Below are positions 4,386-45,993 of a stretch of DNA of 64,000 nucleotides, in pieces (positions within the stretch are counted from its first letter, which is position 1; every line of letters begins with the position of its first letter). The position numbers and the translations under genes were made by a program. The stretch covers positions 1-64,000 of the forward strand of contig CALKBI010000055.1 of the NCBI GenBank assembly GCA_937990185.1, given 5' to 3'. Source of the stretch: an uncultured Neomegalonema sp. (lineage in GTDB: Bacteria > Pseudomonadota > Alphaproteobacteria > Rhodobacterales > Rhodobacteraceae). The notes under the pieces are model-generated. The model saw only the letters and a program-made list of their open reading frames with translations, was not told where the DNA came from and did not search any database.

Positions 4386-5063
4386 ATGTGGGATACGATT
4401 TTTGATTACAGCGCGATCATTATTGCTGATCTAATTCTATCCGGTGATAATGCGCTGATCATCGGCATGGCTGCCGCCGGTCTTTCTCCAGAACTCCGCA
4501 AGAAAGCCATCCTGTACGGCATGGTCATTGCTGCGGTTTTACGGGTTGTCTTTGCCGTTATTGCGACAAAGTTGCTCGGCGTACCGGGGCTGTTGTTTGT
4601 CGGCGGGTTGCTGCTGGTTTGGGTCTGTTGGAGTCTTTACAAAGACATCCGAAATCATACTGATCATCAGGCCGAAATGGCGATGGAAGAAGCCGAGAGC
4701 GGTGGATATGAAGGCAAGCCTAAGCGCACCATGAAACAAGCGCTTATCGCTATTACTATTGCCGACGTCTCAATGTCGCTCGATAACGTGTTGGCCGTTG
4801 CCGCTATTGCTGACGGAGATTCGACAAAGCTGATCGTCGGATTAGGACTTGCGATACTTCTGATGGCATTTGCAGCCACGATGATCATGAAGTTACTTGC
4901 ATCTTATCCATGGATATCGTGGCTTGGTTTGATCGTCCTTATCTACGTAGCATTTGAGATGCTTTACCGAGGAATTACGAACTGCGAAACTGGGATAGGA
5001 CCAATTATTGGCTTTATATCCGAAACGCAGTGTGTTCCGAGCGGTAGCGGAGGGGGCCATTGA
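4386..5063 (+). CDS. TerC-family integral membrane protein (YjbE type)
   Basis: A 225-residue membrane protein with about six to seven hydrophobic segments. The two TerC signature segments with acidic residues are visible: ADLILSGDNALIIGMAA near residue 15 and ADVSMSLDNVLAVAA near residue 125. The conserved aspartates are thought to coordinate a metal ion, and members of the family export manganese (Alx, MntX, YkoY/YceF-type proteins). It begins 3 bases after the GMC oxidoreductase stop, so the two are almost certainly one transcript. I know of no functional link between a GMC oxidoreductase and a TerC exporter. Confidence 0.88.
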   Translation: MWDTIFDYSAIIIADLILSGDNALIIGMAAAGLSPELRKKAILYGMVIAAVLRVVFAVIATKLLGVPGLLFVGGLLLVWVCWSLYKDIRNHTDHQAEMAMEEAESGGYEGKPKRTMKQALIAITIADVSMSLDNVLAVAAIADGDSTKLIVGLGLAILLMAFAATMIMKLLASYPWISWLGLIVLIYVAFEMLYRGITNCETGIGPIIGFISETQCVPSGSGGGH

Positions 5064-38241: not shown

Positions 38242-39054
38242 ATGCGTGCGCTTGCTTTTGGTTTGATGATGCTTGTTTTTCCGGCTCATGCGCAGGATTG
38301 CGGTGGGGCGAAAAATCCGTGTCAGGTCGAAGGCGGCTCGTACCATATTATGATACCCGAAGGCGGCGCAGTCTCGGGAACAGTCATGCATCTGCATGGC
38401 GCGGGGGCCAGCGGTAAAGGCACGCTGAAGGCGGGCGTTGCTAAACAGGCGATAAATCGCGGGTATGCTTTTATCGGTCCGAATGGCATTCATCCTGAAC
38501 GAACGCGCTTCAAGAAAAACTGGTCGGTGCGCGCAAACGGAAGCACGTTTGTCCGCGACGATATTGCTTTTCTCGAACGGGTGCTTGCGGATGCAGAAGC
38601 GCGTCATGGCGCACCGCGAGATAACGTCCTCCTCAGCGGCTTTTCCCGTGGCGGATCGATGGTCTGGGATATCGCTTGTTATGCGCCCGATATGGCAACA
38701 GCCTTTGCACCGATTGCCGGGGCCTTCTGGGATGACCTGCCTGAAGATTGCGAACGGCCAGTTGACCTGTTTCACACACATGGCTGGGACGATAGGACGG
38801 TTCCGCTAGAGGGACGTTCCTTTCGCGGTGGGGAAGTTGTGCAAGGCGATGTATGGGCTTCGCTGTTCGTCTTGCGAAAGGTCAATGGCTGCGCGGCGCG
38901 GCAACCGGAGCGCTCGGCAATCAAGGGCGATAGATGGTGGCGGTATTGGACAGACTGTGCCGCCGGATCGATTACTTTGATGCTTCACTCCGGCAAGCAT
39001 GGACCACCAAAAGGATGGTCGGTTGATGTTTTTGAATGGTTTGAAGGACTTTAG
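38242..39054 (+). CDS. Secreted esterase, polyhydroxybutyrate depolymerase-like (LpqC type)
   Basis: A 270-residue secreted alpha/beta hydrolase. The signal peptide is MRALAFGLMMLVFPAHAQ. The oxyanion part is VMHLHGAGASGKGT, the nucleophile Ser is in LLSGFSRGGSMVWD, the acid is probably in HTHGWDDRTVP, and the His in LHSGKHGPPKGW. Cysteines at the mature N-terminus (DCGGAKNPC) suggest disulfides. The family includes PHB oligomer depolymerases and feruloyl esterases. A GGAGG ribosome-binding site is present. Confidence 0.85.
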   Translation: MRALAFGLMMLVFPAHAQDCGGAKNPCQVEGGSYHIMIPEGGAVSGTVMHLHGAGASGKGTLKAGVAKQAINRGYAFIGPNGIHPERTRFKKNWSVRANGSTFVRDDIAFLERVLADAEARHGAPRDNVLLSGFSRGGSMVWDIACYAPDMATAFAPIAGAFWDDLPEDCERPVDLFHTHGWDDRTVPLEGRSFRGGEVVQGDVWASLFVLRKVNGCAARQPERSAIKGDRWWRYWTDCAAGSITLMLHSGKHGPPKGWSVDVFEWFEGL

Positions 39055-39080: not shown

Positions 39081-39209
39081 CTGCGAAAGCATCATTTCAA
39101 GAGTTTTGAAGGGCGGCCCTACGTCTTTTTGCGGTTTTGCAAGGGTTTTGCGAGACTTTTCAATCCCCATATTCCCCCCTATAGTCATTGCTTAATATCG
39201 GGGAGTTCT

Positions 39210-39341
39210 ATGGGACCGTCCACAACACGTACACTCGCATTCGTTGCCCTCAGCTTGTTATTGCTGACATCATCCTGTGCGACTTTGTTCTCGACATCAT
39301 CATACGCTGATGACTCGGAAAGTATTGTTTTTAATGAGTAA
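39210..39341 (+). CDS. Small putative lipoprotein at head of the XpaC-TelA cluster
   Basis: The track ORF starts at 39129, but ATG 39210 has GGGAG just upstream and gives 43 residues (MGPSTTRTLAFVALSLLLLT). A hydrophobic core is followed by LLLTSSCATLF, a slightly unusual lipobox with the cysteine at residue 23. The mature peptide would be only about 20 residues and acidic (DDSESIVFNE). Its last codons overlap the start of the XpaC-like gene by 8 bases, so the two are translationally coupled. Tiny lipoproteins of this sort are easily missed. Function unknown. Confidence 0.6.
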   Translation: MGPSTTRTLAFVALSLLLLTSSCATLFSTSSYADDSESIVFNE

Positions 39342-40284
39342 TGACGATTTTCAACCGCGCTCCGGCGTGAAATTCGGCGGCGCTTACAGCCCCGGAAATA
39401 CTGACACCGCAATGCGCGAGAACCCTGTTGCGCGGCTGCAATCAGCAAAAGTGTTTGATAAATCCGCCCGCCGTACAAATGCGGGGAAAACGCGGGCATG
39501 GTTGATTGTTTTACTGACGTTACCGCTTGTTTTTTCAGCGATAATCGAGATGCTGGATGGTAATGCTTTTGCGGCGATGCGGAACATTGGCCTGTTCGCT
39601 CTCTTTTGCTTCGCCGCCAATACCATCAAATCCGGGATTGAAGCCGCCAGCGAATATGAAGCGAGAGAATTCGCGTCCGCCCCTAAATTTCCAAGGAAAA
39701 TCATAGGCTCAGCGCTGCTCGGAGTTGGCTTACTGCTGACCTGCTGGACGGGTTGGGGCATCGGGCTGTTTCAATCACTCGGATTTGGCATCATGGGAGC
39801 CGCCGCGTCATTCTTTGCATTCGGCGCAGATCCTATGAAGGAAAAGGGCTACACCACCTCCACTGGGATAACGCCGCAGATGGTGATTGATGCCGTTTCT
39901 GAGGCAGAAGAAAAAATCGAGGGAATCGAACAAGCTGGGGCACAATTGAAAGACCGCCCCTTGCGTGATCGCGTCAACCGGGTAACGAAACGCGCTCGCG
40001 ATATTCTAGCGCGAATTGAGCAAGACCCTTCTGATCTTCGCCGGTCGAAAAAGTTTCTTGTCGTCTATTTAGACGGTGCATTAGAGGCAACGCAGAAATA
40101 TGCGAGAACTCAGAATGACTTAGGCGGCGAAAAAGACGTCTATATTAAGTTTCGTTCCCTACTTGACGATATGGAGCGAGAGTTCGACCATCAGCATGAA
40201 AAGCTGCTATCAAATGACCGAATAGATTTAGACGTGGAAATTGACGTATTGGCGGACCGGCTCAAATCAGCAAGCCGTTTGTAA
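39334..40284 (+). CDS. xpaC: XpaC-like membrane protein (5-bromo-4-chloroindolyl phosphate hydrolysis family)
   Basis: Start set at ATG 39334 (MSNDDFQPRSGVKFGG), overlapping the small lipoprotein; 316 residues. Four hydrophobic segments lie between about 54 and 170 (WLIVLLTLPLVFSAIIEML, IGLFALFCFAANTI, GSALLGVGLLLTCWTGWGIG, IMGAAASFFAFG). A C-terminal helical cytoplasmic part follows (VIDAVSEAEEKIEGIEQAGA, LPLRDRVNRV-type segment). XpaC proteins are routinely paired with TelA, as in Bacillus, and as here. The family's phosphatase-related name comes from a phenotype, not from a known active site. Confidence 0.8.
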   Translation: MSNDDFQPRSGVKFGGAYSPGNTDTAMRENPVARLQSAKVFDKSARRTNAGKTRAWLIVLLTLPLVFSAIIEMLDGNAFAAMRNIGLFALFCFAANTIKSGIEAASEYEAREFASAPKFPRKIIGSALLGVGLLLTCWTGWGIGLFQSLGFGIMGAAASFFAFGADPMKEKGYTTSTGITPQMVIDAVSEAEEKIEGIEQAGAQLKDRPLRDRVNRVTKRARDILARIEQDPSDLRRSKKFLVVYLDGALEATQKYARTQNDLGGEKDVYIKFRSLLDDMEREFDHQHEKLLSNDRIDLDVEIDVLADRLKSASRL

Positions 40285-40373
40285 ATTAAGTAATGTCGGC
40301 GTGCTGATTAGTGCGTAGGCAAAGAGAGTAACTTCTGACAGGCTCGCGAAGCGCGCCGGATAAAGGGACGACA

Positions 40374-41585
40374 ATGAGCACTCAAACAATTGATTCATTG
40401 CAAGAGAAAACAGCTATTGCTTTGCGTGAAGCCGAAGAAGTCAGCAACATCGTTTTGGCCCAACCGAAACAAGAGCTGATTACAATCGAAATGGCTGATC
40501 CCGCGACCGAGGCTGAAATTCGTCGCCGTATGAACGAAGTCGATATCAGCAATACGCAATCGATCATCAAATTTGGCTCGCAAGCACAGGAAAACCTGAC
40601 CGCGATTTCTGACGAAATGCTGGATGGAGTGCGCAACAAGGATGTTGGGCCAGCCGGTGACTCGCTGAGATCCATGGTCAATACCATTCGCGGGTTTGAT
40701 GCGAGTGAGCTTGCCCCCGGCGCTAAGCAGGGGTTTTTAGCGCGTATCTGGGGCTGGATCACCGGACGCTCATCAAAGGTCGCTGATTTCGTCACCCAAT
40801 ACGAAGAAGTGCGCGGCCAGATTGATAAGGTTCAGGACGAGCTGCTTGGTCATGAAACCAAACTGCTGAAAGACATCAAATTTCTCGATAAACTTTATGA
40901 CTCATCTCTCGGGTTCTACGATGAGCTTGCGCTGTATATTGCTGCTGGTGAAGAGAAGCTGAAAGAGCTGGACAGCACGGTTATTCCTGCAAAAGTGACT
41001 GAAGTGGAAAACGCGCCAGAGGGTGCGGGCGTCATGGTTGCGCAGGAGCTTCGTGATTTGCGGGCAGCACGCGATGATCTGGAACGCCGCGTTCACGATC
41101 TGAAACTCACCCGCCAAGTGACCATGCAGTCGCTGCCATCCATCCGGCTCGTCCAAGAAAACGACAAAAGCCTTGTCAATAAAATCAACTCCACATTGGT
41201 CAACACTGTACCGCTTTGGCAGACTCAGCTTGCGCAGGCCGTGACTATTCAACGGTCGCGGGATGCAGCGGGCGCCGTTAAAGGTGCAACCGATCTAACC
41301 AACGAGTTGCTTACCAAAAATGCTGACAACCTTCAGATGGCAAACCGCGAAGTGCGCGAGCAGATGGAGCGTGGTGTCTTTGACATCGAAGCGGTGAAAA
41401 CTGCAAACGCTCGCCTGATCCAGACGATTGAGGAAAGCCTTGCGATTGCTGATGAAGGCAAGAAGAACCGTGCTGATGCCGAGGCTGAACTCATCAAGAT
41501 GGAGTCTGAGCTAAAGGCAACACTCGCATCTGCCAGAGCGCGCGGCGATGGCACGGGAGATAATGTGGGGACGGCAGCAAACTAA
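40374..41585 (+). CDS. telA: TelA-family toxic anion resistance protein
   Basis: A 403-residue, largely alpha-helical cytoplasmic protein. Family marks are IIKFGSQAQENLTAISDEML, FLARIWGWITGRSSKVADFV, LLGHETKLLKDIKFLDKLYD, VTMQSLPSIRLVQENDKSLV and TVPLWQTQLAQAVTIQRS. TelA was named from tellurite resistance plasmids. Chromosomal homologues occur with XpaC, Ter proteins and SPFH proteins and are linked to membrane or envelope stress. A purine-rich AAAGGGACGACA precedes the ATG. It starts 89 bases after XpaC and is followed by the DUF2927 pair after 11 bases. Confidence 0.92.
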   Translation: MSTQTIDSLQEKTAIALREAEEVSNIVLAQPKQELITIEMADPATEAEIRRRMNEVDISNTQSIIKFGSQAQENLTAISDEMLDGVRNKDVGPAGDSLRSMVNTIRGFDASELAPGAKQGFLARIWGWITGRSSKVADFVTQYEEVRGQIDKVQDELLGHETKLLKDIKFLDKLYDSSLGFYDELALYIAAGEEKLKELDSTVIPAKVTEVENAPEGAGVMVAQELRDLRAARDDLERRVHDLKLTRQVTMQSLPSIRLVQENDKSLVNKINSTLVNTVPLWQTQLAQAVTIQRSRDAAGAVKGATDLTNELLTKNADNLQMANREVREQMERGVFDIEAVKTANARLIQTIEESLAIADEGKKNRADAEAELIKMESELKATLASARARGDGTGDNVGTAAN

Positions 41586-41596
41586 GGAGGACTTCT

Positions 41597-42550
41597 ATGC
41601 CCCGGCTTCGGTCGTTTGAAATTTGCTGTATCGCGTTGACCGGTCTGATCGGTTGCGCGCCGAGTTTGCCCGAGACACCGAAAGAAGTGACTTGGGAAAG
41701 CCCGTTGCCACCCGCATTTGATACAACACCTGCCGCAAATTCAACGACTCCTGCAAAGGGCAAAAAGGAAGCAACTGCACGATCTGTGCAGCAACCAACT
41801 CCAACACCACGAGCATCAACTTTTGCCAATGCAGCTCAATTGAATGAACCATTTTATTCAAATGAGCAGCTACATCAAAACTTTCTGTCCATCGCAATGC
41901 GGGCAGAGGCAGCAGATGATGTCGATTCCTCCGGCAACATAGCTGTCGCTAAATGGTTGACACCTTTGCGGTATCACCTTGAAGGAGCGACACCAGAAGA
42001 TGCTAAGCGTGTAGCAGGCCTTGTTAGACGTGTTCGCGAACTTACAGGAATTGACATTGAGCCGTCTTTTGCCCGCGCACCGAATGTCAGACTTAGCTTT
42101 GTTCCTTTTCGGACCCGTAACAATGCGGTTTACCGACTGGCCAGCGAAGGCGATTTAGGGCCTGCGGTTGGGAACATGGTTGCCCGTTGGCGGGATACGG
42201 AACGCGAGAAATGCCTTGGCTTAATTTCAGTTGATCCGGGCAGCGGTGCGATCACCAAAGCAGACATCTTGATCAAAGACGAGTTGCCGGCAATTATTCG
42301 CGACGCTTGTATTGTTGAAGAGCTGGTTCAAAGCCTTGGTCTCATGAACGACGATCCCCGCGCAAGGCCGTCAATCTTCAATGACAGTCAGGAATACCTC
42401 GATTTGACCAGCCATGACGAATTCTTACTGCGCATACTCTACGATCCGCGCGTAAGGCCCGGCATGACGGTGCGCCAGATGAATCCTCTGGTGCAGCAGA
42501 TTATCCGTGAAGTGCGCCCTCTTCCTGCACAGGTACAGAGACGCGCGTGA
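41597..42550 (+). CDS. DUF2927-family lipoprotein, paralogue 1
   Basis: A 317-residue lipoprotein: hydrophobic start with lipobox LIGC at residues 17-20, then a Pro/Thr-rich linker (about 35-75). The DUF2927 domain runs from about 85 to 310. Marks are VAKWLTPLRYHLEG, VRRVRELTGIDIEPS, ADILIKDELPAIIRDACIVE and RPSIFNDSQEYLDLTSHDEF. The segment EELVQSLGLMND at 241-252 falls where a zinc protease would have HExxHxxGxxH, with Glu, Gln and Asn in place of the histidines. Two cysteines, 206 and 238, are shared with paralogue 2 and may be bonded. It begins 11 bases after telA. Confidence 0.85.
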   Translation: MPRLRSFEICCIALTGLIGCAPSLPETPKEVTWESPLPPAFDTTPAANSTTPAKGKKEATARSVQQPTPTPRASTFANAAQLNEPFYSNEQLHQNFLSIAMRAEAADDVDSSGNIAVAKWLTPLRYHLEGATPEDAKRVAGLVRRVRELTGIDIEPSFARAPNVRLSFVPFRTRNNAVYRLASEGDLGPAVGNMVARWRDTEREKCLGLISVDPGSGAITKADILIKDELPAIIRDACIVEELVQSLGLMNDDPRARPSIFNDSQEYLDLTSHDEFLLRILYDPRVRPGMTVRQMNPLVQQIIREVRPLPAQVQRRA

Positions 42551-43419
42551 GGATACTCGTATCCTTTGCAATGCTTTTGTTTCTTGCGCCTTTAAGCATT
42601 TCATTCGCTTTAGACGAACAATCTTCACTGAGCGGACCACAGCTAGAAAAACTCTATGCTTCGATAGAGCAGACTTACCGCAATCAAGGCAAATTCAGGG
42701 AAGACTTCGATCCTGTTGACGCGCCATTTGACGCTGATATTTTATCCAAAAATTTCGCGTATGTTGCCCTTCGCAGTGAAGGACATCAGATCGATGACGA
42801 TACACTGATTGAAGAGAAATCTGCGCCAATAGTCCGATGGGAAACACCCATTCACTTATGGACCTTTGGGACGACTGATGACGATCACAAGCATCTCGAC
42901 ACTCTTTCAAAACGGATTTCAGCTTTAACGGGACTTTCCATCGCCCGTACCCGAGATGTTCAACTCGCCAATGTCTATATTTTGGTTGCCGATCAAGATG
43001 AACGGCGGGATATGGATGGGTTGATTGCAACTCTAGGGCACAACCATGGTGGCCCCTTAGGTAATGCCTGGCCAGAAAAGGCAAAATATCCCTGCATAGC
43101 GAGGGTTGCGATTGATCCGGTCTCGTTGACTCTGAAATGGGCAATTATTCTTATAAAAGACGAATTAAATGGGGCCTTTAGACGGTCTTGCCTCACAGAA
43201 GAGCTGGTTCAATCGCTCGGATTATTCAATGATGGTGCAGAAATTCGCCCTTCAATCTTCAATGATAACGCTGAGTTCATTGAACTGACACGACATGATG
43301 AATACCTATTAAAAATATTGTATGATCGACGCCTACGACCTGGAATGTTCCAGAAAGACGTTGAACCGATTGTGCGGGAAATTGCGACGAAGTTATTGGC
43401 TAACACCAAAACTTACTGA
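42547..43419 (+). CDS. DUF2927-family secreted protein, paralogue 2
   Basis: A 290-residue exported protein with GTG start overlapping the stop of paralogue 1 (GTGA). The signal peptide is MRILVSFAMLLFLAPLSISFA; there is no lipobox, so it is likely soluble in the periplasm while its partner is membrane-anchored. The domain aligns throughout with paralogue 1: ALTGLSIARTRDVQLANVYI, then CLTEELVQSLGLFND at 215-229 and RPSIFNDNAEFIELTRHDEY. The same ligand-less metzincin-like line-up is present. The cysteines at 183 and 215 match those of the partner. The tandem order suggests a local duplication. Confidence 0.85.
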   Translation: MRILVSFAMLLFLAPLSISFALDEQSSLSGPQLEKLYASIEQTYRNQGKFREDFDPVDAPFDADILSKNFAYVALRSEGHQIDDDTLIEEKSAPIVRWETPIHLWTFGTTDDDHKHLDTLSKRISALTGLSIARTRDVQLANVYILVADQDERRDMDGLIATLGHNHGGPLGNAWPEKAKYPCIARVAIDPVSLTLKWAIILIKDELNGAFRRSCLTEELVQSLGLFNDGAEIRPSIFNDNAEFIELTRHDEYLLKILYDRRLRPGMFQKDVEPIVREIATKLLANTKTY

Positions 43420-43434
43420 GAGAGGGAAAGTGCG

Positions 43435-44544
43435 ATGAGCCTTTGGGACCGGTTAACCGGAGAATTTATCGATGTTATCGAGTGGACAACCGATGACCCA
43501 GACACGATGGTCTATCGCTTTGAGCGGCATGGCAACGAGATCAAATACGGTGCGAAACTGACAGTGCGAGAAGGACAAGCTGCAGTCTTCATCAATGAAG
43601 GCCAGCTCGCCGACGTCTTCCCTCCGGGCATGTATATGCTCGAAACCAACAACATGCCGATGATGACAACGCTGAATAGTTGGAGCCATGGTTTCAACAG
43701 CCCGTTCAAGGCTGAAGTCTATTTCGTATCGATGAAGCGATTTGTTGACATGAAATGGGGAACCAAAAATCCCGTCATGATCCGTGATCCTGAATTTGGC
43801 CCAACACGCCTGCGCGCGTTTGGTACTTATGGTATTCGCGTAGCCGATCCCGCGACGTTCATGCGCGAGATTGTAGGCACAGACGGACATTTCGATACCG
43901 ATGAGATCGAAGGTCAACTTCGTAATATCATCGTATCGCGGTTTTCAACTGCTGCTGCCGGTTCGGGAATTCCTGTGCTTGATCTTGCGGCAAACTACGA
44001 TCAACTGGGCGAGTTTGTCGGCACGAAGATTGCGCCGGAAATGGCTGAATACGGGTTGGAACTTTCGAAGCTGTTGGTCGAGAATGTCTCGCTACCGCCG
44101 GAAGTCGAGAAAGCAATGGACAAACGCACCGAGATGGGTGTGCTGGGTGATCTGAACAAATACACCCAATTCCAAGCAGCCGAGTCCATGCGTGCTGCTG
44201 CTGAAAACGGTGGTGACGGCGGAGGATTGGCTGGCGCAGGGATGGGCGCTGGCATCGGCATGGCACTCGGCAATGCCATGGGCAACGCAATGGGCGGTGT
44301 TGGCGTCGGGCAAGCATCGGCTGCAGTTCCCCCACCTCTGCCAACAGCGAAATGGCATGTTGGGATTAACGGCCAAACGAGTGGACCTCACGATACCTCT
44401 GCACTTGGTGGCATGGTCAGCAATGGACAGATGAACCGTGATACACTTGTATGGTGTGACGGAATGAGTGGGTGGACTAAGGCCGGAGATGTCGGTGATC
44501 TTCGCAGCTTGTTTCCGGCAACACCGCCACCGTTGCCAACCTAA
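43435..44544 (+). CDS. SPFH-domain protein with C-terminal GYF-like domain (YdjI type)
   Basis: A 369-residue protein. The SPFH/virion-core-like domain (about 1-245) starts SLWDRLTGEFIDVIEWTTDD and includes REGQAAVFINEGQLADVFPPG and AFGTYGIRVADPATFMREIV. Next is a glycine/alanine/methionine-rich linker (about 265-300; GAGMGAGIGMALGNAMGNAM), then a GYF_2-type domain (WHVGINGQTSGPHDTSALGG ... LVWCDGMSGWTKA). SPFH proteins form membrane rafts or scaffolds. Bacillus YdjI, its relative, works with PspA in envelope stress. No PspA gene is nearby. It follows the DUF2927 pair by 15 bases. Confidence 0.9.
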   Translation: MSLWDRLTGEFIDVIEWTTDDPDTMVYRFERHGNEIKYGAKLTVREGQAAVFINEGQLADVFPPGMYMLETNNMPMMTTLNSWSHGFNSPFKAEVYFVSMKRFVDMKWGTKNPVMIRDPEFGPTRLRAFGTYGIRVADPATFMREIVGTDGHFDTDEIEGQLRNIIVSRFSTAAAGSGIPVLDLAANYDQLGEFVGTKIAPEMAEYGLELSKLLVENVSLPPEVEKAMDKRTEMGVLGDLNKYTQFQAAESMRAAAENGGDGGGLAGAGMGAGIGMALGNAMGNAMGGVGVGQASAAVPPPLPTAKWHVGINGQTSGPHDTSALGGMVSNGQMNRDTLVWCDGMSGWTKAGDVGDLRSLFPATPPPLPT

Positions 44545-44554
44545 GAACATTAGA

Positions 44555-44579
44555 GTCCTCTGGCAATAAGCTGGAGGAC
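44555..44579 (+). promoter_or_regulatory. Hairpin between the SPFH and zinc-ribbon genes
   Basis: GTCCTCTGGC (44555-44564) and GCTGGAGGAC (44570-44579) form a ten-pair stem with two G-U pairs and an AATAA loop. There is no T-run. It may act as a processing or stability element in the polycistronic message. Confidence 0.45.
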
Positions 44580-44647
44580 ACTTACCACCTCGACAGATTT
44601 ACCGGATCGACGTCTCCGATTGTTCCGAGACGCTGGATTAGCAAGCA

Positions 44648-45838
44648 ATGACCTCCGAGCCAATAAGCAGCGATCACTTTCCTTGTGCCCAATGTGGCGC
44701 AGACTTACGGTTCGAACCGGGGAAAGAAGTTCTTGTCTGCGAATATTGCAACCATGAAAATCACATCGACATCGATGGTGAGCCGATTCAGGAATTGGAC
44801 TTTCGCAAAGCAATTGCAAATCAGCTTAGTGACGTTCAAACGGAAACAACCACCGTCGCAAAATGTTCGTCTTGCGGAGCGACAGTAGAGTTCGATCCTA
44901 ATCTTCACGCGGATGAGTGCCCGTTTTGCGCTGGCCCGTTGATTACCGATGTCGCTCAACACAGGCACTTAAAGCCAAAAGGCGTTTTACCCTTTGCTAT
45001 TGCAGAGAGCGAAGCCAAAGACTTTCTAAAAGAATGGCTCGGCAGTCGATGGTTCGCTCCAAGCGCGCTGAAGAAATATGCGCGGGCTGATCATAAGATG
45101 AATGGGCTTTACACGCCTTATTGGACTTTCGACGCCGATACGCAAAGCACCTATCAGGGACAGCGCGGCGACGTTTATTATATCGAACGCATGGTCACTG
45201 TGATGACCGATAAAGGACCGCGCAAACAGCGTCAGCGTATTCCGCAAATCCGTTGGACCCGAGTATCCGGGCGTGTGCGCCGTTGGTTTGATGACGTTCT
45301 GGTTCTCGGCTCCAAAGCATTACCGAAACAATTTGCCGATGAGTTAGCGCCTTGGGATCTTCATGCAATCTTGCCCTATCAATCCGAATATCTCGCCGGA
45401 TTTCGTGCGGAAGCCTATACAATCGATTTGCGCGAAGGGTTTTCTGAAGCACGCGCCAATATGGATTTAACAATCCGACGCGATGTCCGATTTGACATTG
45501 GCGGCGATCAACAGCGTGTTGACAGACTCGATACAGAGTTCGGCGGTGTCACGTTCAAACATGTCCTCTTGCCAATCTGGATTGCAGCCTATCGCTATCG
45601 CGGAAAGTCCTATCGTTTTGTAGTGAACGGACGGACCGGTAAGATCAGAGGCGCAAGACCATATTCGGCGTGGAAAATTCTTGCCGCCGTTTTGCTCGGC
45701 GCTTTGGTTATGACGATATTTTTCTCCGTGCTCTATGGGTCCGGCACGCTGGATCAAATGATGTATGACGGCGGATTCATTCCACAAAATTTACCGCGCG
45801 GTGCGCCGCCAGTCTTTTTCCCTGACGGGCTTCGATAA
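44648..45838 (+). CDS. Zinc-ribbon membrane protein (YdjG/TFIIB-ribbon type)
   Basis: A 396-residue protein. Two zinc ribbons lie at the N-terminus: CAQCGADLRF...CEYCNHEN and CSSCGATVEF...CPFCAGPL. A beta-rich middle domain follows (YARADHKMNGLYTPYWTFDA, VLLPIWIAAYRYRGKSYRFV). One transmembrane helix is near the C-terminus (ILAAVLLGALVMTIFFSVLY), leaving a short tail. Databases often mislabel such proteins as primosomal N' helicase. The Bacillus homologue is encoded beside PspA and YdjI. Here it closes the cluster after the SPFH gene, and a hairpin follows. Confidence 0.88.
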   Translation: MTSEPISSDHFPCAQCGADLRFEPGKEVLVCEYCNHENHIDIDGEPIQELDFRKAIANQLSDVQTETTTVAKCSSCGATVEFDPNLHADECPFCAGPLITDVAQHRHLKPKGVLPFAIAESEAKDFLKEWLGSRWFAPSALKKYARADHKMNGLYTPYWTFDADTQSTYQGQRGDVYYIERMVTVMTDKGPRKQRQRIPQIRWTRVSGRVRRWFDDVLVLGSKALPKQFADELAPWDLHAILPYQSEYLAGFRAEAYTIDLREGFSEARANMDLTIRRDVRFDIGGDQQRVDRLDTEFGGVTFKHVLLPIWIAAYRYRGKSYRFVVNGRTGKIRGARPYSAWKILAAVLLGALVMTIFFSVLYGSGTLDQMMYDGGFIPQNLPRGAPPVFFPDGLR

Positions 45839-45860
45839 CTCCCTATCAGGGGCATCACGA

Positions 45861-45889
45861 CAAAGACCGAAATTGGATTTCGGCCTTTG
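45861..45889 (+). terminator. Hairpin terminator at end of the envelope cluster
   Basis: CAAAG-A-CCGAAAT pairs with ATTTCGG-C-CTTTG around TGG; a single A/C mismatch interrupts a twelve-base stem. There is only a weak T-run. It is placed between the zinc-ribbon gene and the convergent BKACE gene. Confidence 0.55.
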
Positions 45890-45993
45890 TCCTCGTCACA
45901 ATTCAAATAACGTCTGTGATTTACGAGTTTTGCATCGAAATCTCAGAGTTTTGCCTATTCAATTCCAGATTTTACCATAGATTTTCGGGAATT

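Follow-up and report, generated by a model that had tools for sequence, protein, structure and literature searches.

The window analysed here, a stretch of 64,000 nucleotides from an uncultured Neomegalonema sp. (GenBank assembly GCA_937990185.1, contig CALKBI010000055.1), carries at 39210-45838 seven plus-strand genes encoding, in order, a small lipoprotein, XpaC, TelA, two DUF2927 proteins, an SPFH protein with a GYF domain and a double zinc-ribbon protein. This module is a conserved unit in most genomes of a large, mainly marine family, not a local accident. What appears new is the union of two separately known gene pairs with an exported zinc-protease-like protein whose zinc ligands have been replaced, a combination for which no description was found. 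The explanation we favour, with about as much reason to believe as to doubt it, is that the genes form one operon for a trans-envelope membrane-surveillance and repair assembly analogous to YdjGHI-PspA of Bacillus subtilis, in which TelA-XpaC would substitute for PspA and a “pseudo-metzincin” would sit on the outside.

Conservation is clearest in a survey of 150 genomes of the window's family, in which only strong PF13421 matches were counted as SPFH. TelA was found in 134 of these genomes, DUF2927 in 143 and SPFH in 133; 132 have both TelA and SPFH, 15 have neither and three have just one of the two (Fisher p 1.3e-17, uncorrected for phylogeny). In 124 of the 132 genomes having both, spfh follows telA on the same strand at a distance of 0.8-4.4 kb; in seven of the other eight the two genes are on separate draft contigs, which give no distance between them, and in one (G306) a single contig carries both, about 37 kb apart. 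Nearly every genome of the family has a single telA copy. Eighty named Rhodobacteraceae-type loci (Yoonia, Loktanella, Octadecabacter, Roseovarius, Salipiger, Celeribacter and others) came from a DUF2927-led scan; since these were picked by DUF2927 similarity, the unbiased evidence is that of the family survey. The order xpaC-telA-DUF2927-spfh-znr (znr being the zinc-ribbon gene), all on one strand, is seen in 69 of the 80, many of the remainder stopping at a contig edge; the xpaC-telA junction is visible in 78, and the median gap is about 18 nt both there and between telA and DUF2927. The public annotation of the Paracoccus ferrooxidans record pFER4 has telA-DUF2927-SPFH-zinc ribbon in identical order. 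The initial annotation had proposed that XpaC-TelA is joined with SPFH-zinc ribbon and exported DUF2927 in one unit; joint occurrence, linkage and the 69 complete loci bear this out, and the neighborhood, far from being restricted to close relatives, is conserved across the family survey and the named loci and, without DUF2927, in five genomes of other families.

The same annotation's order of seven packed genes agrees with the open reading frame (ORF) boundaries, with Pfam (all profile matches given are over cut-off) and with the cysteine pattern of the last gene. The features of the module are as follows:

39210-39341, plus strand: small lipoprotein of 43 residues, with an LLTSSC lipobox
39334-40284, plus strand: XpaC (PF10112, E 1.2e-32), 316 residues, hydrophobic segments at residues 53-76 and 123-146
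40374-41585, plus strand: TelA (PF05816, E 3.5e-106), 403 residues, no transmembrane segment, long helices predicted
41597-42550, plus strand: DUF2927 copy A (dufA; PF11150, E 2e-41), LIGC-lipobox lipoprotein, predicted metzincin fold
42317-42352, plus strand: former zinc site of copy A, residues 241-252, EELVQSLGLMND, with E241, Q245 and D252 at the His positions and E242 kept
42547-43419, plus strand: DUF2927 copy B (dufB; PF11150, E 3.1e-38), signal-peptide-like N-terminal segment, no lipobox seen
43198-43233, plus strand: former zinc site of copy B, EELVQSLGLFND, altered like that of copy A
43435-44544, plus strand: SPFH protein (Band_7_1, PF13421, E 4.1e-101), C-terminal GYF_2, proline-rich tail
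44353-44502, plus strand: GYF_2 domain of the SPFH protein (PF14237, E 1.2e-17)
44648-45838, plus strand: znr, double zinc-ribbon protein, ribbons at 44684-44749 and 44864-44929, transmembrane segment at 45662-45751

The xpaC ATG lies inside the 3' end of the lipoprotein gene, dufA and dufB overlap by 4 nt, and the remaining gaps are 11-103 nt. Ratios of nonsynonymous to synonymous substitution (dN/dS) against a congener (G342) are 0.037 for xpaC, 0.027 for telA, 0.069 for dufA, 0.127 for dufB, 0.022 for spfh and 0.027 for znr; such low values in all six larger genes indicate purifying selection. The znr product has no Pfam match over cut-off, and its eight cysteines form two CxxC...CxxC ribbons and do not vary among 18 aligned sequences. 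The topology of transmembrane segments and lipoboxes is predicted: one strong hydrophobic segment in the znr product (residues 339-368), two hydrophobic regions in XpaC and none in TelA or SPFH.

The closest known parallel is experimental: in B. subtilis the SPFH protein YdjI reaches the membrane via the membrane proteins YdjG and YdjH and then recruits PspA (PMC8581546). YdjG has two zinc ribbons, a further domain and a transmembrane segment (PMC11237479), a layout matched by the two ribbons and transmembrane segment of znr. Like pspA-ydjGHI, the module puts an SPFH protein without a transmembrane segment, a two-ribbon membrane protein and a long-helical cytoplasmic partner into one putative operon; unlike it, the module lacks PspA and the TPM-domain protein YdjH, has TelA, XpaC and exported DUF2927, and carries a GYF domain on its SPFH protein where that of B. 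subtilis has a zinc finger. The Firmicutes XpaC-TelA (YaaN) pair unites these two families in this order, but its loci are without SPFH, zinc ribbon or DUF2927. In Listeria, paired xpaC-telA is induced by a membrane-active bacteriocin (PMC12791056). A survey of phage shock protein (PSP) systems makes no mention of DUF2927, TelA or XpaC (PMC11237479).

Within the module, an SPFH protein is paired with a double zinc-ribbon membrane protein and PF10112 and PF05816 genes are adjacent; no module protein has a Pfam match to PF04012 (PspA/IM30), to the TPM domain or to the TerD/TerZ-family or TerC domains. Because PspA, TPM and TerD are absent from it, the module stands outside the PSP and Ter systems by membership, but its mode of action may resemble that of the YdjGHI branch. 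The initial annotation's “no PspA or Ter genes” thus holds for the module but not for the genome, which has a PspA homologue (C48:27399, the only copy found) and TerC proteins on another contig (C38:6977-7855) and in the window (4386-5063). It also missed the terC gene that immediately precedes xpaC in 32 of 77 relatives, so that a Ter-family link exists, although no terC holds that position in the window. The C38 gene, adjoining a gatB-like gene, is the orthologue of the relatives' terC; the window's TerC-family membrane protein (plus strand, between GMC oxidoreductase-like and TRAP-transporter-like genes) is only distantly related to it. PADLOC gave no credible defence match.

The DUF2927 proteins had been recognized beforehand as exported, and export signals are indeed present: copy A has a LIGC lipobox (found by eye), copy B has none, and 48 of 62 family members show a lipobox-like pattern. 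What had been missed is their predicted identity as metzincins with replaced metal ligands. An AlphaFold2 model of copy A, built from 44 sequences, has a predicted local distance difference test score (pLDDT) of at least about 90 across most of the domain and 78 overall. Among the 50 PDB fold matches listed for it, all are matrix metalloproteinases except myroilysin (probability up to 1.00, best E 4.3e-4, template modelling score up to 0.62 on target), and DUF2927 is accordingly predicted from the model to have a matrixin (metzincin) fold. Independently of the model, several DUF2927 proteins that score above Pfam's curated cut-off retain HExxHxxGxx(x)H (HEILHGFGLMNH, HEVLHGFGFRGH, HEMGHVMGLRFH, the last with SVM, and HELAHGFGFAH), with sub-threshold matrixin matches at the HExxH spot. 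The two window copies, like the matrix metalloproteinases in predicted fold, differ from them in having all three zinc histidines replaced: the HExxHxxGxxH/D site is lacking and EExxQxxGxxND stands in its stead, while SIF, with Phe at the Met position, replaces the S-x-M of the Met-turn. Alignment with the HExxH members and the model together lead us to predict that both are metzincin-fold proteins without the zinc site. EExxQxxG..xD (zinc His to Glu, Gln and Asp, catalytic Glu retained) is found in 126 of 135 aligned rows, and EExxQ and ND in all 24 DUF2927 copies from other genomes of the window's genus. In the tree, the three HExxH rows long enough to include cluster on one side (94/93), with long branches. 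A His immediately before EE in relatives was considered as a zinc ligand and dropped, being one residue off when aligned to intact HExxH members. The telA-linked DUF2927 of one genome (G289, L191:7082-8020) has EExxHxxGxxNH, midway between the zinc and E/Q/D sites. No sequence relatives of TelA, XpaC or DUF2927 were found in the PDB, and a literature search on DUF2927 returned no publication.

The module seems to be older than its DUF2927 part. Elsewhere in the Alphaproteobacteria, five genomes from other families (G131, G057, G222, G117, G064) have xpaC-telA-spfh-znr without DUF2927, making later insertion of the latter probable; on these comparisons the tetrad is probably the older core, joined by DUF2927 in the Rhodobacteraceae-type family. 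One genome (G408) has the module with no DUF2927 recognized. The double DUF2927 and the 43-residue lipoprotein, listed beforehand as parts of the module, are both present here but proved to be traits of the window's genus: the tandem pair occurs in 12 of its 14 genomes, window included, and other relatives have a single DUF2927. Immediately before xpaC, 11 of 13 congeners (12 of 14 genomes with the window) have homologues of the small lipoprotein, with the pattern ..RTLAF...SCAT.., against a single dubious pattern match among 78 other relatives, so the ORF is real but genus-specific. A second DUF2927 paralogue, a 452-residue lipoprotein, occurs in one genome (G154, L204:4419-9179) among MoxR-like AAA, VWA_CoxE and M48 peptidase genes, a separate MoxR-VWA locus without TelA and SPFH; this places DUF2927 beside two membrane or chaperone-like modules. 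Fructokinase-like and dtd-like genes 3' of znr in about 50 relatives seem to be neighbors rather than parts of it and are absent beside the window module.

How might such an assembly work? The znr protein, with its single transmembrane segment, and XpaC would anchor the cytoplasmic SPFH scaffold and long-helical TelA at the inner membrane, taking over the roles of YdjG/H, YdjI and PspA, with TelA-XpaC standing in for PspA. SPFH subunits would probably be cross-linked through their GYF domain and their proline-rich tail: the tail is a plausible GYF ligand, reading PPPPPG(A/V) in 37 of 54 relatives and PPPLPT in the window. Outside, the DUF2927 lipoprotein would most likely act not by classical zinc proteolysis but by binding peptides or unfolded proteins of the envelope (or else a hard metal), and would signal outer-face damage to the inner-membrane assembly; in the window's genus this part would be divided between tethered copy A and soluble copy B. 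A single transcript, a physical complex, induction by stress, TelA as a PspA substitute and the function of DUF2927 are all what we infer. A more specific version, which we hold only tentatively and think rather doubtful, is a PspA-independent trans-envelope repair machine in which TelA-XpaC would be the remodelling effector on an SPFH/zinc-ribbon platform and the Glu/Gln/Asp-site metzincin a periplasmic damage sensor or adaptor.

Several observations count against a single surveillance or repair assembly. The genome's PspA homologue is one. The TelA model (pLDDT 71, long-helical) gave only generic coiled coils in Foldseek, none with E <=0.001; with no significant fold match, homology to PspA/ESCRT is not claimed, and the replacement of PspA by TelA is argued from context alone. 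Others concern linkage: two genomes (G348, G377) have lost telA and spfh and kept terC-DUF2927, indicating that DUF2927 exists outside the module too; inserts widen the DUF2927-spfh gap beyond 330 nt in 15 of 75 loci; inserts also separate spfh from znr, often a cytochrome b561-like gene (about 30 of the 80 relatives); and in G306 the module is split into its two distant halves. Such junctions, the seven assemblies with telA and spfh on different contigs, and the B. subtilis and Listeria records of xpaC-telA without SPFH would suit two pairs, xpaC-telA and DUF2927/spfh-znr, that differ in function and share no more than a locus. The joint presence and absence of TelA and SPFH, their linkage in 124 of 132 genomes and the identical gene order in other families make this improbable. 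The cytochrome b561-like inserts (e.g. L047:12071-12493 and L039:10880-11374, a Pfam b561 match being found for the L039 type only) hint at a redox link.

A dedicated tellurite or toxic-oxyanion tolerance operon, with TelA as chief determinant and its companions limiting oxyanion damage or uptake, would fit the terC upstream of xpaC in relatives and the Rhodobacter sphaeroides telA, listed as a chromosomal tellurite-resistance determinant (PMC6955997). That gene is probably orthologous to the module's, judging by the near-general single copy of telA in the family; the combination as a whole may be undescribed, as initially supposed, but one member had already been cited for tellurite resistance. 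Disruption of Listeria telA, however, is reported to raise sensitivity to nisin (4-fold) more than to tellurite (2-fold) (PMC12791056), near-universality in the family is ill-suited to a rare toxin, and the module has no oxyanion reductase, methylase or transporter; we consider this explanation unlikely. Alternatively, DUF2927 could be a metal-dependent peptidase for envelope quality control, its Glu/Gln/Asp set holding a hard metal (Mn, Ca) supplied perhaps via TerC. The near-invariance of E, E, Q and D suggests a retained function at the site, and the kept catalytic Glu, the intermediate G289 site and the terC adjacency retained after telA loss point the same way. A structural or peptide-binding role would equally predict such near-invariance, though, terC adjoins under half of the loci and not that of the window, and no metzincin with an E/Q/D ligand set is known to us, which leaves an active peptidase quite improbable. 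As an observation apart from these, TelA homologues of 26-45% identity occur on large viral contigs of up to 462 kb (L224-L235).

The flanks of the module contain two candidate transcription signals:

39157-39185, plus strand: candidate sigma-70-like promoter, TTTTCA-17-TATAGT, 24 nt ahead of the first ATG
45859-45891, plus strand: terminator-like 14-bp hairpin after znr (z = -3.07)

Both promoter hexamers are unchanged in G342, and promoter-like matches in the region are no more numerous than chance (6 found, 6.4 expected); the hairpin is tentative because a clean T-run is lacking. The close spacing of the genes, this weak promoter match and the hairpin are compatible with one transcription unit but not proof of it. 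Upstream, at 38242-39054 on the plus strand, is a PHB-depolymerase-like esterase gene with a signal peptide, in the same position in G342. The small-lipoprotein segment 39210-39333 has no synonymous changes in 33 sites relative to G342, where neighboring genes have synonymous divergence of 0.4-1.2, suggesting constraint at the nucleotide level, e.g., a leader or regulatory element. Between the window and G342 the leader shows 98% identity. Its RNA fold is ordinary (z -0.87), and Rfam gave no match in the window or the leader.

TelA and XpaC are widespread, yet to our knowledge no mechanism is accepted for them, and a function has still to be assigned to DUF2927. A putative operon that is near-universal in an abundant marine family now appears to link all three to an SPFH/zinc-ribbon platform with an experimentally understood relative, and DUF2927 gains a predicted fold and residues for testing. 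The true role of the “tellurite resistance” protein TelA would thereby become testable in the tractable species Paracoccus denitrificans and R. sphaeroides.

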